From the IMG/VR virus record IMGVR_UViG_3300042568_000072, positions 1 to 24,843 of that record: a DNA stretch of 24,843 bases; one strand, given 5' to 3'. The position numbers were made by a program, and so were the translations under genes. A model generated the notes under the pieces. It did no database searches. It was given only the letters and a program-made list of their open reading frames with translations, and was not told the DNA's origin. Of this stretch, positions 2,977 through 24,378 are shown in pieces. The DNA is from a virus. The first letter of the stretch is position 1; each line of letters begins with the position of its first letter.

Positions 2977-3791
2977 TGGCGATTACGACACTAGACGGCG
3001 CTATCGCTGGTATGCAAGCTCCAGTACCTATCACAAAGGTAGGTATTGGAACCGCCGCTGTCGGAGCATTGCGCGGATACACCCCGTGGTATGCGGCAGG
3101 AAATCCCGGCGCTGCTACAGCAAACGCCGCTGGCGTTAACGGCGCGGCAGTTACTGCACCCGTGACAGGAATGCTTCCTCGCACAAATCCAACAGGCGGC
3201 GCATTTGCTTACCTTGCACGTTTAGGCATCAACGCTAGTACACCGGGCACTTTGTGGCTGATCGACCGTATGTGGAACAACAGCGGACTTTCGGTCACTT
3301 CTACGGCGGGTCAAGCCATCACATCGGCAGCACTTCCCGCCAGATCCGGCGACGGGACGGCTAATGGCGCTAACGTGATGGCTGCTATTGAATGGTCAGC
3401 AACGGGAGGCACGGGAACGCCTACTGTTACGTTGGTTTATAACGACCAAGATGGCAACACTGGCACGGGAACATTCGCTGCCGTTGCTTCGCCTCCTGTC
3501 GGCACTTTTGAGGTGTTTACTTTAGGTGCCGGCGATACAGGTATTAGATCGCTTACTTCAGCATCATCTTTCACGCAGTCCGCTACTCGCACCAGTGGTA
3601 CGATGCACTTAGTGCTGTTCCGTGTTCTCGCTCAGGTAGAAGTTACATCTGCCAACATCGGTAACGCTATTGACGTACTGACGGCAGGGATGCCGCGCAT
3701 TTACGATGGTAGTGTTTTGCAGCTTGTATGGTTTCCTAGTGCAACAACTGCCACTAACTTCATTGGGCAGTACATCGAAACTCAAGGCTAA
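2976..3791 (+). CDS. Conserved phage structural-type protein
   Basis: 271 residues beginning MAITTLDGAIAGMQAP, with YLARLGINASTPGTLWLIDR at about 78-97, then VTLVYNDQDGNTGTGT and near the C-terminus MPRIYDGSVLQLVWFP. This is a beta-rich, Gly/Ala/Thr-rich protein of a type common in tailed phages near head or tail genes, normally left as hypothetical. There is no enzyme motif or signal peptide. It is coupled at both ends by TAATG overlaps, so it probably belongs to one translation unit with the 51-residue gene before it and the repeat protein after it. A virion component is likely, but which part is not shown. Confidence 0.78.
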   Translation: MAITTLDGAIAGMQAPVPITKVGIGTAAVGALRGYTPWYAAGNPGAATANAAGVNGAAVTAPVTGMLPRTNPTGGAFAYLARLGINASTPGTLWLIDRMWNNSGLSVTSTAGQAITSAALPARSGDGTANGANVMAAIEWSATGGTGTPTVTLVYNDQDGNTGTGTFAAVASPPVGTFEVFTLGAGDTGIRSLTSASSFTQSATRTSGTMHLVLFRVLAQVEVTSANIGNAIDVLTAGMPRIYDGSVLQLVWFPSATTATNFIGQYIETQG

Positions 3792-5011
3792 TGCCTGGAC
3801 AGGGCGACTTTCCGCTTCGCTCCGCTTGGCTTGGCAGGGGCAGGGGCAGGGGCAGGGGCAGGGGCGCAAATCCGCGTAAAGTTGTCAATGTTGCTGCGCG
3901 AAATAGTGCAAACGCACCTGTATGGATTAATTGGACATTTAATGCTTCTGGCCCGTTCAGCCAAACACTTACCCCTGCGCTGTTTACTAATACCCAGACT
4001 TTCTACGCTGCGACGGTTGGTCGCGGCACAATCACTCTTGCCCCTGCGCTACTCACCAACACGCAAACCTTCTACTCGCCTACAGTTGCACAGGTAAGAA
4101 TCGTTGCCCCTGCACTGTTTACGAACACCCAAACCTTCTACAATGCGACAGTAACGACAACCCGCAATCTATCTGCTGGCCTGTTTACCAATACCCAGAC
4201 GTTTTATAGCCCGACCCGCACTTCAAGCAATGCGGTGTCGCCTGCGCTTTTCACAAACACGCAGACCTTCTACAGCCCAACAGCTACACGCTCCAACACA
4301 GTTTCACCCGCGCTGTTCACCAACACGCAAACATTCTTTGCGCCTGCCGTAACGACAACCAGAGCGGTTCAACCCAGCCTATTTACAAACACCCAGACAT
4401 TCTACGGGCCAACTGCATCGGCAATCAATCTGCTGTTGCCATCGCTGTTCACTAATGAACAAACTTTTTACAGCCCAACGGTTGCGATAGCTGGCCTTCC
4501 ACAAGAGCTATCGCCAAGCCTATTCGTTAACACGAACATCTTCTATCCCGTCACTGTCGTTGATCCGCCTGTGCAATTGGTCGGCGGTGGCGGTGGCGAA
4601 GCTTCATCAAGCAGCAAGCCAGCCAAGCCCAAGAGCAAGCGCAAGGCAAAAGGCTTTGCCAACGAGCGCGCACAACTTGAGGCGGCGCTATCAGCGGATC
4701 GCGTTGCAGAGAACATCAATGTTCTGAATGACAGCAAATTAGCTGCCGCGAAGAAAACAGCCAAAAGCCTGAATTCTTATCTGAACGAAAAGGGAACCGC
4801 TGACGCACTGCGCAAGCAGCTTAATGAACTGCAAATCCAGTTAAGCGTCAAAGCTGCCAACGATCAGAATGATTTGACCTTTAACGCTGATCTGCAAGCG
4901 GCAGCAGATGAGGTGCAAAGGTTCCTGGACGAAGAGCAAGAAGCAATTGAAATCCTACTGCTTGATGCGCAGGAAGATGACAGGCTGCTACTGTTAGCTA
5001 TTGGATTTTGA
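3791..5011 (+). CDS. Repeat protein: Gly-Arg start, nine 22-residue repeats, helical tail
   Basis: 406 residues in four parts. Residues 15-25 form a Gly-Arg run encoded by a GGCAGG hexamer repeat. Residues 62-256 hold nine copies of a unit with core PALFTNTQTFYSPTV, at spacings of 23, 22, 22, 22, 22, 22, 22 and 25 residues. Residues 265-290 are a Gly5 stretch and a Ser/Lys-rich basic linker. Residues 291-406 are charged and helical, with a very acidic end. The ATG at 3791 overlaps the previous stop (TAATG). No ATG, GTG or TTG occurs in frame between the G-rich run and the repeats, so translation must cross that run. Similar FTNTQTFY repeats occur in unannotated phage virion proteins. Function is unknown; a fibrous or beta-solenoid surface protein is my inference. 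Confidence 0.8.
   Translation: MPGQGDFPLRSAWLGRGRGRGRGRGANPRKVVNVAARNSANAPVWINWTFNASGPFSQTLTPALFTNTQTFYAATVGRGTITLAPALLTNTQTFYSPTVAQVRIVAPALFTNTQTFYNATVTTTRNLSAGLFTNTQTFYSPTRTSSNAVSPALFTNTQTFYSPTATRSNTVSPALFTNTQTFFAPAVTTTRAVQPSLFTNTQTFYGPTASAINLLLPSLFTNEQTFYSPTVAIAGLPQELSPSLFVNTNIFYPVTVVDPPVQLVGGGGGEASSSSKPAKPKSKRKAKGFANERAQLEAALSADRVAENINVLNDSKLAAAKKTAKSLNSYLNEKGTADALRKQLNELQIQLSVKAANDQNDLTFNADLQAAADEVQRFLDEEQEAIEILLLDAQEDDRLLLLAIGF
3833..3862 (+). repeat. Five tandem GGCAGG hexamers, G-quadruplex-prone
   Basis: Five perfect GGCAGG units lie in a row, followed by GGCG. Read another way, this is five GGGG tracts (3837-3840, 3843-3846, 3849-3852, 3855-3858, 3861-3864), each separated by CA. 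It lies 43 bases into the repeat-protein gene on the coding strand, so the mRNA also carries it. Unit changes would alter the number of Gly-Arg pairs without shifting the frame. Confidence 0.9.
3974..4558 (+). repeat. Nine imperfect 66-75 bp coding repeats
   Basis: The repeats encode the PALFTNTQTFY units of the surrounding gene. The protein core is almost constant, while codons differ from copy to copy (for example TTTACTAATACCCAG, CTCACCAACACGCAA, TTTACGAACACCCAA). The last copy has diverged most (SLFVNTNIFYPVTV). Conserved protein with scattered synonymous change points to an old duplication held by selection rather than a fresh expansion. Confidence 0.88.
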
Positions 5012-9070: not shown

Positions 9071-9472
9071 TTGAAAAAAGATAGCCGCCTCGCCCGTGCT
9101 GGTGTTTCGGCTTTCAATAAGCCCAAGCGCACGCCTGACCATCCGAAGAAGTCGCATATCGTTGTCGCCAAAGAAGGTGATACGATTAAGACGATCCGAT
9201 TTGGTGAGCAGGGCGCGAAGACTGCTGGCAAGCCCAAGAAGGGTGAGTCTGAAGCTATGAAAAAGAAGCGCGCATCTTTTAAGGCTCGGCACGCAAAGAA
9301 CATCGCTAAAGGCAAGATGAGCGCGGCCTTCTGGGCTGACAAGATTAAATGGACAATAGTTCCAATTGGTATTAGCATTATGACTCTACAAGGAGTGTCA
9401 AATGCCAAATTTCAATCTGAGAATATCAGTCACTTGTCCGCGCTGCCTCAATCAGAGAGAGGCCCGTGGTGA
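9071..9472 (+). CDS. Small basic phage protein with a replaced C-terminus
   Basis: 133 residues from a TTG directly after the previous stop; GGAAAG at 9057-9062 is the ribosome site. Residues 1-94 (KKDSRLARAGVSAFNKPKRT, then RHAKNIAKGKMSAAFWADKIKW) match a short lysine-rich phage protein I know from other podoviruses, which ends a few residues after the ADKxKW motif. Here the frame continues for 39 more residues that are unlike that family and are encoded by the leader and first 71 bases of the HNH gene. The natural end was probably lost when the HNH gene inserted near 9352. The core seems intact. Function is unknown; its charge would suit DNA or membrane contact. Confidence 0.72.
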   Translation: MKKDSRLARAGVSAFNKPKRTPDHPKKSHIVVAKEGDTIKTIRFGEQGAKTAGKPKKGESEAMKKKRASFKARHAKNIAKGKMSAAFWADKIKWTIVPIGISIMTLQGVSNAKFQSENISHLSALPQSERGPW

Positions 9473-9851
9473 TGTTGTCCGCAGAGCACAAAGGGAAGGG
9501 CGCGAATTATTTTGTAAGCCGTGCAGGAATCAGGACAGGTTTGCCAACAAGTCACATCCTCGAAAAGGATCTGGAATTAAAAATGATCCAGATCGCCTTC
9601 CGGCTTATAAAAGCTATTCAAGGGCTAAAAGGCGCTGCAAAGAAGGTCGAGCCCATCACCCAGCTTATGAGAATGTTGAATTCAAATTCAAAAGCTTTGA
9701 TGAATTTTACGATGCACTTGGCCCTCGCCCAGAAGGATGTTCAGTTGATCGAATTGACCCTCTGGGGCATTACGAGCCGGGCAATGTCAGATGGGCAACT
9801 GTGCTTGAACAGGCAGCCAACCGTTTGCCGAAGAATTATTGGATAAGATAA
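9402..9851 (+). CDS. HNH-type endonuclease, free-standing homing type
   Basis: 149 residues. C12-x2-C15 and C38-x2-C41 form a zinc-ribbon-like pair. The second half has the signature of phage HNH-like nucleases: AYKSYSRAKRRCKEG, then SFDEFYDALGPRPEG, SVDRIDPLGHYEPGNVRWAT and EQAANR (residues about 69-141). Proteins of this group cut DNA and are often selfish genes that copy themselves into related phages. AAGGAG at 9390-9395 is an excellent ribosome site. The start lies inside the tail end of the previous ORF, and the stop is one base before the gp10 ATG. No intron is seen around it. Whether the enzyme is active cannot be told from sequence. Confidence 0.88.
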   Translation: MPNFNLRISVTCPRCLNQREARGDVVRRAQREGRELFCKPCRNQDRFANKSHPRKGSGIKNDPDRLPAYKSYSRAKRRCKEGRAHHPAYENVEFKFKSFDEFYDALGPRPEGCSVDRIDPLGHYEPGNVRWATVLEQAANRLPKNYWIR

Positions 9852-12846: not shown

Positions 12847-13308
12847 ATGACGCAGGATGGCTCCCCCAAATACTGGCTTAGGCGGAACTTTACCGAGACA
12901 CTCAGTCTTTCGGATGAAGCCTCCGACTGGCTGATTGCGCTTTGGGAAGTCATTCAGTTATTTGATGATATTGCAGACGGCACTTCGATAGATCGAGATG
13001 ATCTTGACGGCGCAATCTGGAACGCACTGGTCGGCCTTCCTGCAAATGGTTTCTATCAAAGAAACGCGCACATGCTCATCCCACTGATGGGCGTTGCTGT
13101 TTTGAAATGGAAAGCCTCTGACGTTGTTGAGCGTGAAGGCGAGGCTTGTGCCACCAGCTTCGTTTGGCGTGCTGGCTATTATGATATGGTTCTAGCCGCT
13201 GTGCAGATCGAGCATGGCGTGCAGGCCGCGATGGATATTGGTTGCGTTGTTCTGAAGCTATATGGCGAAAGCCTCGAAGATTATATGAAGGAAATGTCTG
13301 ATGCCTGA
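12847..13308 (+). CDS. Conserved podovirus protein of unknown function
   Basis: 153 residues. The pattern IALWEVIQLFDDIADG, DLDGAIWNALVGLPANGFY, LIPLMGVAVLKWKASD, REGEACATSFVWRAGYYDMVL and VLKLYGESLEDYM is shared with unannotated proteins found in many podoviruses just before the ejection genes. It is largely helical with several buried hydrophobic stretches, but none is long enough to be a clear membrane anchor. It has no catalytic motif. The weak ribosome site is AAGGG at 12836-12840. Its 3' end overlaps the next gene by 8 bases. Given its place it may help in ejection-protein recruitment, but there is no direct evidence. Confidence 0.75.
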   Translation: MTQDGSPKYWLRRNFTETLSLSDEASDWLIALWEVIQLFDDIADGTSIDRDDLDGAIWNALVGLPANGFYQRNAHMLIPLMGVAVLKWKASDVVEREGEACATSFVWRAGYYDMVLAAVQIEHGVQAAMDIGCVVLKLYGESLEDYMKEMSDA

Positions 13309-13990
13309 TCCAGTTACCGGCGTAATGGCTGCATCCAGTGTCGGTTCGGCTGCAATCGGATCGAGTGCTTCAAAAAGGGCTGGGCGACAGCAGGTGCAGG
13401 CCGCAGAGGCTGGCGCTGCTGAACAGCGTTTGGCCCGTGAAGAACTTCGCAGGTTGCTTGAGCCTTATGTTTCTGCTGGCACGCCTGCGCTTCAATCTAT
13501 GATGGGCGCGGTTGGATTGCGCGGCCCTGAAGAACAGGCTGCATTCGTTGCACAGCAAGAACAAAGCCCGATCTTTCAGGCATTGGCCCGTCAGGGTGAA
13601 GAAGCCATGCTCCAGCAAGCATCTGCTACTGGCGGACTTCGCGGCGGCAATATCCAAGGGGCATTGGCCCAGTTTCGACCCAGCCTTCTGAATCAATTCC
13701 TAAACCAGCAATATGAACGCCTAGGTGGATTGACGCAGCTTGGACAGCAATCCGCTGCTGGTGTTGGCGCTAGTGGATTAACCAGCGCAACAAACATTGC
13801 AGAATTGCTTGGTCAGGGTGGTGCTGCACGCGCTGGTGCTACTTTGGGATCAGCGCAGGCTTTTGGTCAGGGGCTTAGTAATCTCGCAACAATTGGCGGA
13901 ATGGCCTTTGGTCGCCAGCCCCCAAGCAACCTTGGCCGATTGACACCCGCCGCAGATGCTTTGATCGCCGCAAATCCGAGTATTTTCTAA
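13301..13990 (+). CDS. DNA ejection (injection) protein, P22 gp7-like
   Basis: 229 residues: an N-terminal Ala/Ser-rich stretch (VMAASSVGSAAIGSSASKRA), a charged helix with EEL.R.LEPY at about 46-60, ATGGLRGGNIQGALAQFRPS at about 108-127, QYERLGGLTQLGQQSAAGVG, and an Ala/Gly-rich end. This composition and the ATGGLRGGN...ALAQF.P.LL.Q motif are typical of phage DNA transfer proteins in the gp7 slot. These are packed inside the head and expelled into the host to help DNA cross the envelope. It overlaps the previous gene by 8 bases and the next by TAATG. The match to gp7 is by type and place more than by close identity. Confidence 0.68.
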   Translation: MPDPVTGVMAASSVGSAAIGSSASKRAGRQQVQAAEAGAAEQRLAREELRRLLEPYVSAGTPALQSMMGAVGLRGPEEQAAFVAQQEQSPIFQALARQGEEAMLQQASATGGLRGGNIQGALAQFRPSLLNQFLNQQYERLGGLTQLGQQSAAGVGASGLTSATNIAELLGQGGAARAGATLGSAQAFGQGLSNLATIGGMAFGRQPPSNLGRLTPAADALIAANPSIF

Positions 13991-14769
13991 TGGTCGCACC
14001 TTACAATTATTCAATCAACGTGCCTAATCCCTTGGCTGGATTCCTACAGGGAGTTCAGATCGGTCAGGTGCAACGCCAACAAGAACAAGAGCGCCAAAAT
14101 CAGCAATTGCAGCAGCAGCAGCAAGCCGCTTTTTTGCAAGACATTCAAGGCACAATTCGGAATCCAACGCCTGAAAAGTGGCAAGAGCTTTACGCCAAGC
14201 ACCCGCTGATGGTTGAGCAAATTTCCACTATCCGTAAAAATGTCACGCCAGCAGCTTCCAATTTGTTTACGCGAACAGCAATTCAAGTTCTGCAATCTGA
14301 TGCTGTTGGAGACGTGGAGGGCGCTGCAAAACAAGCGGAAGATGCTGCTGCGGCTGCTCAGGCAAGTGGAATGACCACTGAAGCGCAACAGCTTACTGAT
14401 ATGGCTAAAGCCTATCGGGGAATGCAGGGCGATCCCACACAACGTCGTGGCGCGATTGCTTCCTTGCTTGCCGTTTATGCAGACAAAGAACAATATGATC
14501 GCATTAATAAAATCTATGGATTTGATATGCCTGCACCGCTTGCAGAATATCAAGCCCGTGTTCGCAAGGATGGCAAAGACGAAGCTGATGTTTGGTGGGA
14601 GTCTCAGGGCAAATTCATGACCACTGACACCGACTTAATTGATATTCAACAGTTCATTAGAGATAGAAAACTCACCGGCAAGCCAGCGCCAAAAGGCGTG
14701 ACATTCACCCCATTGAATCCTGAAGGAGGTCAGACGGAAAAGCCGTCTGGCACCTTTCAAGGGCAGTAA
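13990..14769 (+). CDS. Second ejection protein, probable upstream half of a frameshifted fusion
   Basis: 259 residues as read without a shift. The N-terminus (APYNYSINVPNPLAGFLQGV) is followed by a Gln-rich helix at about 25-50 (QRQQEQERQNQQLQQQQQAA) and a long helical, Ala-rich middle with VLQSDAVGDVEGAAKQAED. This fits the gp20-like slot between the gp7-like and gp16-like genes. Its last residues (TFTPLNPEGGQTEKPSGTFQ) look like a linker, not a natural end, and the stop at 14767-14769 is followed at once by a peptidase domain in the +1 frame. A +1 shift at TTT-C (14755-14758) would give a 362-residue fusion with 256 residues from this frame. Confidence 0.72.
   Translation: MVAPYNYSINVPNPLAGFLQGVQIGQVQRQQEQERQNQQLQQQQQAAFLQDIQGTIRNPTPEKWQELYAKHPLMVEQISTIRKNVTPAASNLFTRTAIQVLQSDAVGDVEGAAKQAEDAAAAAQASGMTTEAQQLTDMAKAYRGMQGDPTQRRGAIASLLAVYADKEQYDRINKIYGFDMPAPLAEYQARVRKDGKDEADVWWESQGKFMTTDTDLIDIQQFIRDRKLTGKPAPKGVTFTPLNPEGGQTEKPSGTFQGQ
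14723..14730 (+). promoter_or_regulatory. Perfect internal Shine-Dalgarno sequence
   Basis: AAGGAGGT is an exact 8-base match to the 16S anti-SD. It lies inside the ejection-protein gene as Glu-Gly-Gly codons, and no ATG, GTG or TTG in the peptidase frame lies within usable distance. It may stimulate frameshifting rather than start translation. Confidence 0.6.
14731..14749 (+). other. Hairpin just before the frame change
   Basis: CAGACGG at 14731-14737 pairs perfectly with CCGTCTG at 14743-14749 around the loop AAAAG. The stem begins directly after the AAGGAGGT and ends 5 bases before the TTT-C at 14755-14758. No U-run follows, so a terminator is unlikely. Confidence 0.65.
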
Positions 14770-15079
14770 CATTAACCCGATTGCCGATCTTGGAAAGCTG
14801 GGCTTCGCACCGACAAGCGGATTCAGAACGCAGCGCCATCAAGAGGCATTGGTTGCTCAAGGGCTGACCAAGACCAAAGGTGGATCGCATCCAATAGGTG
14901 ACGCTTTGGACTTCATGCCGCCGAAGGGAATGTCCATGCAAGAGGCTATTGCCACTGTCCGCAGGATGTATCCTGGCGTTAAGGCTATCCCTAGCAACAA
15001 AGGCGCAATTCATGTAACCTTCCCCGGATGGGGACAGGCTCCTGACGTAAGCGGCTCTCGACGTAGATATGGTGATTAA
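14759..15079 (+). CDS. M15-type peptidase domain in the +1 frame (ejection-protein C-terminus)
   Basis: This frame is open from 14717 to the TAA at 15077-15079. It encodes GKLGFAPTSGFRTQRHQEAL, GGSHPIGDALDF and GAIHVTFPGWG. The SGFR-T start, S-H-x2-G-D-A-x-D (H300 and D307 in fusion numbering) and the last His (H341) fit zinc M15/VanY-type peptidases that cut peptidoglycan peptides. The only normal start codon is a TTG at 14849, after the SGFRT segment, so starting there would destroy the fold. Either a +1 shift from the gene before (TTT to TTC at 14755-14758) or a rare start such as ATT at 14771 is needed; a one-base sequence error is the simple alternative. The next gene starts 2 bases after its stop. 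Confidence 0.62.
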   Translation, partial: KGSNINPIADLGKLGFAPTSGFRTQRHQEALVAQGLTKTKGGSHPIGDALDFMPPKGMSMQEAIATVRRMYPGVKAIPSNKGAIHVTFPGWGQAPDVSGSRRRYGD

Positions 15080-15081
15080 AT

Positions 15082-17952
15082 ATGGCTGAAAAGTATCAAG
15101 AAGGTCAGCAGCTCAAGGGTAGCGACGGCAAAATTTATGTTGTTGTTGGCGGCGTTCCTCGTGAACAGATCGCTGGCCCTTCTGTGCAAAGCGGCGTTTA
15201 TCGCCTGCCAAAATCTCCTGAAAGAGCCGCTAAAGAGGAACGCGAAGCAGGCACTTTCGAACTAGCCAAAGAAGCTGCTGTTCGCGCCGAAGAAAGCGCC
15301 ATAATTTCCAAAGCTTCGGAAGCGCGTGCTGTTAGTGAAGATGAGCGCAAACGCGTAAAGGAATTGCGGGATGCTTATCGCGGCGAAGATGCCGTTAGGG
15401 ATTATGAAAAAGCATTCCCCAATTATGTCGCTGCGTTGAAAACTGGGCCAAATGAAGATTTGACGCTGCTCTATCTCTACGCAAAGACTATCGACCCGCA
15501 AAGCACGGTCGGCGCAAGCGATATGGAAAACATCAACGCGTCCGATGCGCGACTGCCAGCCGCCGTTCAAGGCGCATTGCGTGAATTGCGTGCATCTGAT
15601 GGCAAGTTTACCGATGCTGCTCGAACAAGTATTCGATCGGGCTTGCATAAGGTCATTACGGAAAAAAATCAGGCTTATAAATTTACGCGAGATCGCTTCA
15701 CTTCTGATGCGCAATCACCTGTCTATAACGTCGATCCAATGCTTGTTGTCGGCCAGCCATTCGGCACGCAGCAGCAGGTTGAAGATGTAAAGTCATATTG
15801 GCGCAAGGAATATGAGCGCAATCCAGAAAGCTTGCCGGAGCAATATCGTCCAGAGCGAGTTTCGGCTCCTGAGATAAATATTCCGCCTGACGGCGGCCCT
15901 GTTGCGACTGATCGCGACATTGAAATTACTAATGCCTTGCAGCAAGCATGGGCCGGCAATCAGACAATCGAGCAGATTGATGCGCTTTCACGTCAATTGA
16001 CTGGAGGCAATGGATTGAGTCCTGAAACCATTCAGGCGCTACGTGAGAATGAAACAACAAGGCAGAACATACGATTTAAGCCGTACATTGCGCCTTCTGA
16101 AGCAGCAGCAGCACCTGCTGGCGGCGATCTGGGTCAAGCATTTTACGCTGGCGTTGGTGATATAGCCCAGGGCGTCGGAGACGTTTTTGGCATCGTTGCG
16201 AATCCAGCAAATGCTGTTGTCAATGCGCTGACCGGAGCCAATCTTACAACTGATCTTGGTCAGACATTCCGCGAAGCAACCGGCGCTCCGCAGGGTGATC
16301 CGCTGGCAACTGCAATCAATCGCGCTGGCATAGGCGGTTTAACAAGTGTCGGCGGCGCAATGGGCGCTGCACGCGTGCTGCCTACCGCTGGCCGTGAAAT
16401 TGCTGAGATATTGGCAACGCAACCTGCTCAACAGATCGCTGCAAATATTGGCGGCGCTTCAGCAGCAGAGATCGTCAGGCAACAGGGTGGCGGAGTGCCA
16501 GCACAGATCGCTGCAACGATTGCTGGCGGCATCCCTGCGGCGGGTGCTGTTAGTCAGGCGCAATCTTTTGCGCGATCTCTTCCCGAAGCCGTTTCAACGT
16601 TCCGTGGCGTGCCTCAAGCGGTTCCTGCGGCGGTATCTGCTGCTGATGAAATTGCTGTCACATCACCACGTATGTTTGAGGCTGGCGAAACCATTACAAG
16701 TCGTTCTGGAGGCGCAATGGGAACATCGCCTGAAGAAATTCGGCTTATGCAGGCTGAAGGGCTTCCGGTTCCTGTTCAATTGACGCGTGGTGCTGCTGCA
16801 CGCGATCCTGAACAATTGGCTTTCGAGAAAGAGCAAATCTTTAGCGAACTTGGCGGCCCATTGCGCAGGCGTGCTGAAGAAAACAATCTTCAAGCATTGC
16901 AGAATTTTGATCGCTTCATTGATATGACTGGCGCAGAGGCTCCAGATATTGCGTCCACTGGCAATGCAGTAATCAAGGCTCTTTCACAGGGCTATCAAGC
17001 AAGCAAGAATCGCGTTCGAGTTGCATATACTGAAGCTGATAAGGCTGGTGAAACGGCTGAGATGGTTTCTTATAATGATTTGGTCAATTTTATTGATCAG
17101 CAAACGCCGACAACGCGAACATCGCTTGCACCGATTTTGCAATCAACGCTTGAGAAATTGCGCATGGAAGACCCGGCAGGCTCTGGGTTGATTTCCATCC
17201 GTGCGCTTGAAGATGTGCGCAAGTCGATCAATAAGGCCGTTCAGCCAGGAACACCTAATTCTACATATGGCGATGCGCTGAAAGATTTGATTGATGCTGC
17301 GACTGAAGGCGTAGGTGGCGATCTCTATAAGAAAGCTCGTCAGCTTCGCATTGATCAATCAGATAAGTTTGAAAAGCGTGCAATCGTTGCGCGGCTGGTA
17401 TCAAATATCAAAAACATGGATGATCGCCGCATTCCTGCCGACAGAGTATTCCAAAGCGCAATTCTAAACGAATCTCCTGAAAACATTCAATTCCTGCGCA
17501 GAACGCTTCGGGATCTGGGCGATGATGGCAAGCAGGCTTGGAGTGAACTCCAAGGTGCTACGCTGCGCCATATTCAGGAAAGAGCAACAGCAAACGTCAA
17601 TAAAACATCCGAGAACCTTGACGTTATTTCGGCGGCTCAACTCAATAAGGCTGTTGACGAACTGGACAAGAATGGTCGGCTTGATTTGATTTTCAATCCG
17701 AAGATGGCCCAGCAGGTGCGCGATCTGCGGGACGTGGTGCAGTATGTAAACACCGTTCCGCCTGGAACATCCATCAACAACAGTGGAACAGCACGTACAT
17801 TGGCTGCTGCATTGGGTGAAATGGTTATCACAGGCACCACAACCTCAATTCCGCTGCCTGTCTTGACTGGCATCAAAGTTATCCGCGATCAGATCAAAGA
17901 TGCGAAGATTAAAAAGCAGATCAACAGATCGCTGTTGCCGCGTGGCGAATAG
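15082..17952 (+). CDS. Large internal virion / ejection protein, gp16-like slot
   Basis: 956 residues, the largest gene here. The N-terminal 250 residues are charged and helical (AGTFELAKEAAVRAEESAI; ERKRVKELRDAYRGEDAVRD). Residues about 340-480 are Gly/Ala-rich with weakly hydrophobic stretches (YAGVGDIAQGVGDVFGIVAN, IAATIAGGIPAAGAVSQA) that could insert in membranes. The rest is helical again (EDVRKSINKAVQPGTPNSTY; ARQLRIDQSDKFEKRAIVAR). This arrangement is usual for the biggest ejection protein of podoviruses (P22 gp16 or T7 internal core types), thought to pass into the cell envelope ahead of the DNA. No transglycosylase motif is evident. Ribosome site GGTGA at 15070-15074. The assignment is from size, composition and order. 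Confidence 0.72.
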   Translation: MAEKYQEGQQLKGSDGKIYVVVGGVPREQIAGPSVQSGVYRLPKSPERAAKEEREAGTFELAKEAAVRAEESAIISKASEARAVSEDERKRVKELRDAYRGEDAVRDYEKAFPNYVAALKTGPNEDLTLLYLYAKTIDPQSTVGASDMENINASDARLPAAVQGALRELRASDGKFTDAARTSIRSGLHKVITEKNQAYKFTRDRFTSDAQSPVYNVDPMLVVGQPFGTQQQVEDVKSYWRKEYERNPESLPEQYRPERVSAPEINIPPDGGPVATDRDIEITNALQQAWAGNQTIEQIDALSRQLTGGNGLSPETIQALRENETTRQNIRFKPYIAPSEAAAAPAGGDLGQAFYAGVGDIAQGVGDVFGIVANPANAVVNALTGANLTTDLGQTFREATGAPQGDPLATAINRAGIGGLTSVGGAMGAARVLPTAGREIAEILATQPAQQIAANIGGASAAEIVRQQGGGVPAQIAATIAGGIPAAGAVSQAQSFARSLPEAVSTFRGVPQAVPAAVSAADEIAVTSPRMFEAGETITSRSGGAMGTSPEEIRLMQAEGLPVPVQLTRGAAARDPEQLAFEKEQIFSELGGPLRRRAEENNLQALQNFDRFIDMTGAEAPDIASTGNAVIKALSQGYQASKNRVRVAYTEADKAGETAEMVSYNDLVNFIDQQTPTTRTSLAPILQSTLEKLRMEDPAGSGLISIRALEDVRKSINKAVQPGTPNSTYGDALKDLIDAATEGVGGDLYKKARQLRIDQSDKFEKRAIVARLVSNIKNMDDRRIPADRVFQSAILNESPENIQFLRRTLRDLGDDGKQAWSELQGATLRHIQERATANVNKTSENLDVISAAQLNKAVDELDKNGRLDLIFNPKMAQQVRDLRDVVQYVNTVPPGTSINNSGTARTLAAALGEMVITGTTTSIPLPVLTGIKVIRDQIKDAKIKKQINRSLLPRGE

Positions 17953-23680: not shown

Positions 23681-23989
23681 GTGTCTGAATCGAGTGTTTT
23701 GACTGTCAAAATAGATATGTTGCACAGTGACGTTGTTGATATGAAAACAGCACTGAACGAATTATCGAAGGCAATCACCAAGCTGGCGCTTGTTGAAGAA
23801 CGTCAGGCACAGACTGCCGACGCGATGGAGCGTGCATTCAAAGCTATCGGCAAGGTCGAGGATCGGCTTTCCGCATTGGAATTGACAGCGCCTAAGACGA
23901 AAGAAACCAGTGCTTGGGTTGATCGCTTCATCCTCGCTGCAATCGTTGCTGTCATGGGCTTCGCTGGGACACGATTGGGCTTGTTATGA
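23681..23989 (+). CDS. Coiled-coil protein with C-terminal membrane anchor, lysis-associated
   Basis: 102 residues from the GTG at 23681, chosen because AGGTGA at 23670-23675 lies at proper distance. A GTG at 23672 is in frame but overlaps that site. Residues 1-70 are helical with heptads (VLTVKIDMLHSDVVDMKTAL, ALVEERQAQTADAMERAFKA). The last 22 residues (VDRFILAAIVAVMGFAGTRL) form one membrane helix. Soluble helix plus single C-terminal anchor, directly before an endolysin, resembles XhlA-type or holin-accessory proteins. It could be a holin partner or antiholin. The TGA overlaps the endolysin ATG (ATGA), so the two are made together. Confidence 0.7.
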   Translation: MSESSVLTVKIDMLHSDVVDMKTALNELSKAITKLALVEERQAQTADAMERAFKAIGKVEDRLSALELTAPKTKETSAWVDRFILAAIVAVMGFAGTRLGLL

Positions 23990-24378
23990 GCATAACACTA
24001 GGCAGCAGATCACTTATGCGCCTGGAGGGCGTCCACGCTGATCTGGTGCGCGTTGTAAAGCGTGCTGCTGCAATGTCGGATCTCGACTTCACCGTATTGG
24101 AAGGTCTGCGCACGGAAGCCCGTCAACGCCAGCTAATGCAGCAAGGCGCAACCAAGACGCTCAATTCTCGACACTTGACCGGACACGCTGTCGATCTAGC
24201 GCCCATGCTCGACGGCAAAGTATCTTGGGACTGGCCGCTCTATCATCGGTTAGCCAAGATTGTGAAGGCTGCTGCTGCGGCTGAAAACGTCTCGCTGCAA
24301 TGGGGGGGCGACTGGCGAACTTTCAAGGATGGTCCACATTGGGAACTGCCTTGGAAGCAATACCCGAAAGGAAAATGA
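23986..24378 (+). CDS. Endolysin, M15-type L,D-peptidase
   Basis: 130 residues. SRHLTGHAVDLAP (61-73) is the zinc motif S-x-H-x3-G-x-A-x-D, with H63 and D70 as ligands. DGPHWEL (115-121) holds the third ligand H118 and nearby E120. FTVLEGLRTEARQRQLMQQG (35-54) is the usual substrate-side strand and helix. This is the M15C (L-alanyl-D-glutamate endopeptidase) type of phage endolysin. No signal peptide or membrane segment is present, so a holin is needed to release it. The ATGA overlap with the anchored protein before it and the holin and spanins after it make a full lysis cassette. Confidence 0.9.
   Translation: MSITLGSRSLMRLEGVHADLVRVVKRAAAMSDLDFTVLEGLRTEARQRQLMQQGATKTLNSRHLTGHAVDLAPMLDGKVSWDWPLYHRLAKIVKAAAAAENVSLQWGGDWRTFKDGPHWELPWKQYPKGK

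Follow-up and report, generated by a model that had tools for sequence, protein, structure and literature searches.

The window analysed here is the whole 24,843-nt stretch of viral DNA in IMG/VR record IMGVR_UViG_3300042568_000072. Within it, a gene for a P22 gp7-like ejection protein adjoins a gene split between two reading frames, which is followed by a gene for a large protein. The features of the locus are as follows:

13301..13990, plus strand: P22 gp7-like ejection protein gene, adjoining the split gene upstream (Pfam and PHROG matches)
13990..14769, plus strand: frame-0 ORF at the gp20 position, 259 aa, with a QGQ-stop end just past the slip codon (gene order common to relatives)
14725..14729, plus strand: GGAGG, a Shine-Dalgarno-like element (sequence; kept in relatives)
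14731..14749, plus strand: perfect hairpin CAGACGG-AAAAG-CCGTCTG, 7 bp with a 5-nt loop (covariation in relatives)
14750..14754, plus strand: GCACC spacer from hairpin to slip codon (4-5 nt in 108 of 114 distinct cassettes)
14755..14758, plus strand: putative TTT-C slip site, TTT at 14755-14757 and C at 14758 (slip inferred, without measurement)
14767..14769, plus strand: TAA, the frame-0 stop (sequence)
14759..15079, plus strand: +1 frame with an M15-like domain (SGFRT, SHPIGDALD and a final His), 106 codons plus stop
15082..17952, plus strand: large 956-aa protein at the gp16 position (position and gene order only)

The frame-0 ORF (13990-14769, plus strand) encodes 259 aa and ends at the TAA stop at 14767-14769. 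The +1 frame ends with its own TAA at 15077-15079, leaving a gap of two bases before the next ATG at 15082, and a slip at TTT would give a predicted product of 362 aa with the join ...SGTF-KGSNINP.... From the codon list, ATG, GTG and TTG are absent between the slip site and SGFRT in the window. The ORF and its stop, the TTT-C, the extent of the +1 frame, its 106 stop-free codons ending 2 bases before the next gene, and the lack of a start codon before SGFRT had all been claimed in a preliminary description of this locus, and all held. That description saw the slip codon only; the GGAGG and the hairpin went unnoticed. The 61-nt region at the junction folds with z = -5.4 against shuffles, and a scan of both strands of the window found one GGAGG-hairpin-TTT cassette only, that at the junction.

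The gene at 13301..13990 matches PF25688 P22_gp7 (E 2.2e-7, exceeding the curated Pfam cut-off) and phrog_598 DNA ejection (E 5e-31). The order of gp7-like gene, split gene and large protein is that of P22 genes 7, 20 and 16, and the split gene is therefore put at the gp20 position. Only gp7 is assigned by Pfam, and the gp20 and gp16 assignments rest on position: no informative Pfam or PHROG match supports gp20 homology of the upstream protein, and the 956-aa protein (15082..17952) has no family match in either collection. The large downstream protein is ~760-1070 aa in most relatives examined. Elsewhere in the window, we noted by eye an ORF with many near-identical repeats such as ALFTNTQTFY (3791-5011) and a 149-aa ORF with CxxC pairs that resembles an HNH-type homing endonuclease and overlaps the preceding ORF (9402-9851).

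Reading frames at related loci

In IMG/VR, six of six relatives of the upstream protein (71-100% identity, from six metagenomes) keep the +1 split, the most distant of them (L006) with TGA, not TAA, as its frame-0 stop. Searching with the downstream domain gave 34 loci, all with the same split despite differing upstream proteins. Our test set comprised 234 IMG/VR loci that were picked solely by homology to three downstream domain classes, ignoring the cassette, and whose frames were classed by script. Class a is the domain of the window, class b has the motifs SGYRGP...GPHWHV, and class c has MTSGRRT. The +1 split was found in 199 of the 234 loci: 73 of 74 in class a, 68 of 80 in class b (12 in frame), and 58 of 80 in class c (17 in frame and five in -1). 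The count of 17 is approximate, since L223 was scripted as in-frame, yet its junction reads +1. L207, which the script placed in -1, matches only in part, at a site that has been rearranged; its contig carries a truncated cassette (GGAGGTCAGACGGCAAAACCG then GATC) with the second half of a class-a domain, and looks rearranged or chimeric. Since +1 loci were the main source of the domain profiles, the set is biased toward +1 relatives; it also includes repeated contigs and near-duplicates, the distinct hairpins numbering 114. The preliminary description had proposed comparing homologues to see whether the peptidase is fused in a single frame; most show the +1 split, and some are natural in-frame fusions.

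The arrangement is also present outside the metagenomic records. The cassette occurs among phage-like genes in Sphingopyxis bauzanensis DSM 22271, and another genome of the same order (L291) has a class-c +1 split; in a further sphingomonad genome (L293) the junction is not clearly readable. In the cultured Pseudanabaena phage (cyanophage) Pam1, the cassette lies at the end of Pam1_14, which is annotated as a DNA/protein translocase of the injectosome, and a class-b domain follows in the +1 frame. The Pam1 junction reads GGA GGT CAGGCGG-CTCCC-CCGCCTG CTGGC TTT TCG GAC TGG CTC TAA. A fragment of this +1 class-b domain appears in the record as the 50-aa hypothetical protein Pam1_15 (L290, ON014753, 5130-5279). 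The structural proteins of Pam1 have been identified by mass spectrometry (PMC9382816); the tryptic trans-frame peptide is predicted to be GGQAAPPPAGFR, and the frame-0 form is predicted to end in GGQAAPPPAGFSDWL. Sphingopyxis phage VSN-002 has its class-b domain in frame, within a single 390-aa ORF annotated as a P22 injectosome translocase.

At some loci (L031, L036 and others) TAA directly follows TTT, and the shift must therefore occur at or before TTT. In L218, merely 14 nt precede TTT, and 6 nt separate the first base of TTT from the stop. We infer from these TTT-TAA loci and from the narrow overlap of L218 that the slip takes place at TTT. An in-frame class-c fusion (L272) has the join GGF-PDPLKAPGQMTSGRRT, with the same residues (F-PDP) as are predicted for the shifted product; fusions in a single frame, found naturally, demonstrate that such a fused protein exists.

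Other arrangements were observed in smaller numbers. In five class-c loci (L226, L231, L247, L273 and L274) the domain lies in the -1 frame; the corresponding position holds the heptamer C-CCT-TTC, and the hairpins are weak, with only 3-4 bp. The direction of the shift thus seems to be exchangeable. In L111/L256, L250, L254 and L388, in-frame fusions retain a GGAGG-hairpin-TTT cassette a few hundred nt upstream, which is unexplained. In L111, it is frame 0 that encodes M15, together with an additional domain, and the +1 frame closes after two codons; frameshifting at that site would cost the protein its enzyme rather than supply it.

Purifying selection acts on the +1 frame. The +1 reading of 59 distinct class-a domains gave a median pairwise dN/dS of 0.14, compared with 1.45 and 1.89 for the two remaining frames, in which 7-9 stops occur per sequence. 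The claim in the preliminary description that selection keeps the downstream frame thus held in the dN/dS check across relatives that it had suggested.

The cassette at the junction

The cassette consists, in order, of GGAGG, a hairpin of 6-10 bp, 4-5 nt, and UUU plus C or U. It was found in 197 of the 199 +1 loci, with GGAGG 27-36 nt before TTT and C or T as the next base in 197/197; the two loci off this pattern have GGGGGG (L173) and a partial GAGG with a hairpin (L211). Of the 114 distinct cassettes, 113 have a stem that starts 0-1 nt past GGAGG, and in 108 the gap from stem to TTT is 4-5 nt; stems are of 6-10 bp and loops of 3-8 nt. Along the linear mRNA, 22-31 nt separate GGAGG from the slip codon, and about 4-6 nt remain when the hairpin is counted out. 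Across these cassettes the linear distance is variable, while the folded distance is nearly constant.

The comparison shows that the cassette is conserved and that its stem covaries. Stem sequences are diverse (for example CAGACGG/CCGTCTG, CCGGCG/CGCCGG, GCGGGG/CCCCGC and GGTAGT/ACTACC), and 36 representatives gave a covariation score of 0.665, compared with 0.154 +/- 0.028 for shuffles and <=0.125 for slid structures. In these representatives 97.2% of cells were paired and both-side changes were seen in six of seven pairs. They had been drawn from the best-pairing register; when the 93 distinct 30-nt cassettes were all taken, without picking, that single register paired 84% of cells, and 93/93 had >=5/7 pairs in one of three adjacent registers.

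The coding content of the region does not account for these features. In synonymous-codon shuffles of class c, the hairpin was stronger than the protein requires (p <= 0.05 in 41/57, median z -2.3), and GGAGG and TTT, expected at ~15% and ~22% given the amino acids, were both observed in 57/57. The cassette encodes the peptide GGQTxxPSG(T/N)F. When the whole of IMG/VR was scanned for this peptide with any synonymous codons, all 82 hits were already-found loci with the exact GGAGGTCAGAC...GTCTGG...TTT pattern, and none had another codon at the invariant positions. This codon lock holds despite downstream domains that differ by up to ~30% in protein and upstream proteins that are often unrelated, which points to selection at the RNA level. 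Protein-level constraint as the cause of the motif is ruled out by the synonymous-codon scan together with the covariation.

We also scanned IMG/VR with the cassette only and no protein reference, which returned 104 stretches. Nearly all of the 75 distinct cases have a frame-0 stop a few codons past TTT and a +1 domain of ~80-125 aa; in L050 and L111, frame 0 continues. Across 2.58 Mb of the loci under study, on both strands, 199 of 203 cassette-like sites lie at the junction, and each of the remaining four precedes an in-frame domain copy by a few hundred nt. Rfam gave no match at gathering score for the window or for Pam1.

Downstream domains and upstream proteins

The identities of the domains are established for several classes, as is the position of the split gene in the cluster. 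Class c matches PF08291 Peptidase_M15_3 above the Pfam cut-off, and in a profile search against solved structures it matched a muramoyl-pentapeptide carboxypeptidase at 0.005. At four loci (L075, L109, L110 and L099) we observed that the same cassette leads to an SLT transglycosylase instead of an M15 domain. The L075 and L099 domains match PF01464 SLT at 39 and 33.9 bits (cut-off 21.3). For class c and L075/L099, profiles thus show the same cassette leading to two unrelated enzyme families whose common substrate is peptidoglycan.

The domain of the window is less certain. Classes a and b have M15-like motifs and weak endolysin matches, that of the window (class a) being to phrog_465 endolysin (E 3e-5), and neither class has a Pfam match. 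The predicted class-a structure was of low confidence (pLDDT 66), its fold matches to M15 enzymes were non-significant, and a profile search of class a against solved structures returned none. The M15 peptidase domain claimed in the preliminary description therefore held in part: it is M15-like by motif and a weak PHROG match, without Pfam recognition, and its enzyme fold is unconfirmed. Enzyme activity of classes a and b is an inference from motifs and weak matches. INPHARED contained no relatives by upstream protein or class-a domain, and only chance matches by cassette DNA; a further homology search with the natural sequence as query found distant M15 genes only, mostly in microviruses. A second M15 gene in the window (23986-24378; PF13539, phrog_465 endolysin) is probably the lysis endolysin and is distinct from the frameshifted domain.

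Proposed programmed frameshifting and its alternatives

We consider it very likely that these loci undergo a programmed +1 frameshift that gives a fraction of the ejection proteins a wall-cutting domain. This is inferred from sequence alone, without protein, ribosome-profiling or reporter data, and the slippage itself, its frequency, the action of the signal and the presence of both forms in the virion are all inferences. The preliminary description had proposed a +1 shift at UUU-C yielding two forms of the ejection protein; the proposal is supported comparatively, and the product and the ratio are not shown.

In the mechanism we propose, ribosomes on the gp20-position gene would arrive at UUU 14755 with GGAGG and the hairpin behind them, the latter able to refold on leaving the ribosome. 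Folding of the hairpin would set GGAGG about 5 nt from the slip codon. The mRNA would then be drawn 5'-ward, whether by GGAGG pairing with the 16S rRNA anti-Shine-Dalgarno, by refolding of the hairpin or by the two together, and peptidyl-tRNA-Phe would move from UUU onto UUC (or onto UUU where the next base is U). Slipped ribosomes would make the 362-aa protein with a C-terminal wall-cutting domain, and the others would terminate at 14767, giving the 259-aa form. Virions would package and inject the two forms, and the subunits with the domain would cleave peptidoglycan as the DNA enters. In P22, about 12 copies each of gp7 and gp16 and about 30 of gp20 are injected (PMC8402733); if these numbers apply, a shift in a minority of passages may, by analogy, place a few enzyme-bearing subunits in each virion.

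Parts of this signal have precedents. The Shine-Dalgarno distances from the slip codon reported in bacteria are 3 nt where the shift is +1 and 9-14 nt where it is -1 (PMC5009743). As in prfB, the shift would be of one base in the + direction; both have a pyrimidine-rich codon in the P site and, upstream of it, a stimulator resembling a Shine-Dalgarno sequence (PMC5009743). In prfB, however, the stimulator is 3 nt from CUU, UGA follows directly and no hairpin is described, whereas here the codon is UUU, a hairpin lies between and GGAGG is 22-31 nt away. Of the prfB-type features, the ~3-nt spacing is not met at these loci, and a direct stop is met in few (TTT-TAA or TTT-TGA), most having no stop directly after the slip codon. 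UUU-C is not known to be a strong slip site on its own. Because 22-31 nt of linear mRNA exceeds the 3 nt reported for Shine-Dalgarno-stimulated +1 shifts (PMC5009743), a role for GGAGG needs the folded hairpin. For the 5' stem loop of T4 gene 60, the proposal is that refolding outside the ribosome lets it drag the mRNA 5'-ward (PMC5009743), but bypassing there skips a long coding gap, and here one base. Shine-Dalgarno pairing across the hairpin and refolding as a pulling force are non-exclusive models, between which sequence cannot decide. The five -1 loci, with weak hairpins and a heptamer that fits the classical -1 slippery type, fit a +1-specific role of the hairpin.

In the Listeria phages PSA, A118 and A500, too, a structural protein is produced in two forms through +1 frameshifting (PMC5009743); these phages differ in their CCC-U slip codon, in the proteins concerned (capsid and tail shaft), in the stimulator (a 3' pseudoknot or the stop codon) and in adding no enzyme. 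T7 gp16 is likewise an ejected virion protein with a peptidoglycan hydrolase (transglycosylase) domain, but is encoded in a single frame. Programmed +1 frameshifting, Shine-Dalgarno stimulation and frameshifted phage structural proteins are already known. The open-access papers searched and Rfam contained no description of the cassette or of a hairpin-bridged Shine-Dalgarno, and the papers none of ejection-protein frameshifting; a prior description in subscription papers is possible.

A rival view is that the split reflects an error of one base, in assembly or sequencing, or decay into a pseudogene; the window is a single contig, and the preliminary description could not rule out an error. That reading failed and is excluded: the same split occurs in independent metagenomes, in two bacterial genomes and in Pam1, and dN/dS is 0.14 in the +1 frame. 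Transcriptional slippage was dismissed by reasoning alone, as TTTC is no long homopolymer. It is also conceivable that the downstream domain is a separate small protein, made by a non-standard start or re-initiation, with GGAGG and the hairpin forming a folded ribosome-binding site. GGAGG is a good Shine-Dalgarno sequence, and at many class-c loci the domain frame offers an ATG within a few codons after the stop. We regard this as unlikely, however: the stretch from slip site to catalytic motif is free of ATG, GTG and TTG in 50/72 class-a loci, in 18/68 class-b loci and in the window, the folded hairpin aims GGAGG at UUU and at no start codon, and neither the invariant TTT (never TTC) nor the in-frame fusions with the same join are explained.

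A further alternative holds that the cassette is mainly a DNA-level recombination joint, an inverted repeat or shared linker for swapping domains, whose conservation is not translational. The modules are indeed mixed: the upstream proteins of +1 loci form 12 clusters, class-a and class-b domains occur behind one of them, SLT domains occur behind the same cassette, and the inverted repeat is exactly at the joint. Against this, the stems diverge yet pairing is kept, which is needless for a homologous joint; the +1 offset, the TTT and the distance from TTT to stem are all kept; and the +1-frame domains still need expression. We judge it very unlikely as the main explanation, and the joint could possibly have both roles.

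Programmed frameshifting is thus our preferred reading, and a bolder version can be put forward with narrower confidence, the balance tilting only slightly in its favour. The cassette may be a +1 signal of a new class, whose Shine-Dalgarno sequence acts on the ribosome across a spacer hairpin. As a portable joint it may have spread among P22-like phages, linking ejection proteins with interchangeable peptidoglycan hydrolases and determining the number of injected subunits that bear an enzyme. The signal is compact, and Shine-Dalgarno contact across a hairpin and a refolding pull on the mRNA are testable with it. For annotation, it provides a correcting rule, by which Pam1_15, for example, becomes a fragment of a hidden domain; such splits resemble sequencing errors, and this one was overlooked even in a cultured phage. 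A wall-cutting domain has been described in a review as missing from the P22-like injection machinery. If our interpretation is true, many P22-like phages would carry such an enzyme in that machinery, hidden by a frameshift that breaks gene calls, and they would offer a clear case of frameshifting as the joint between swappable modules.
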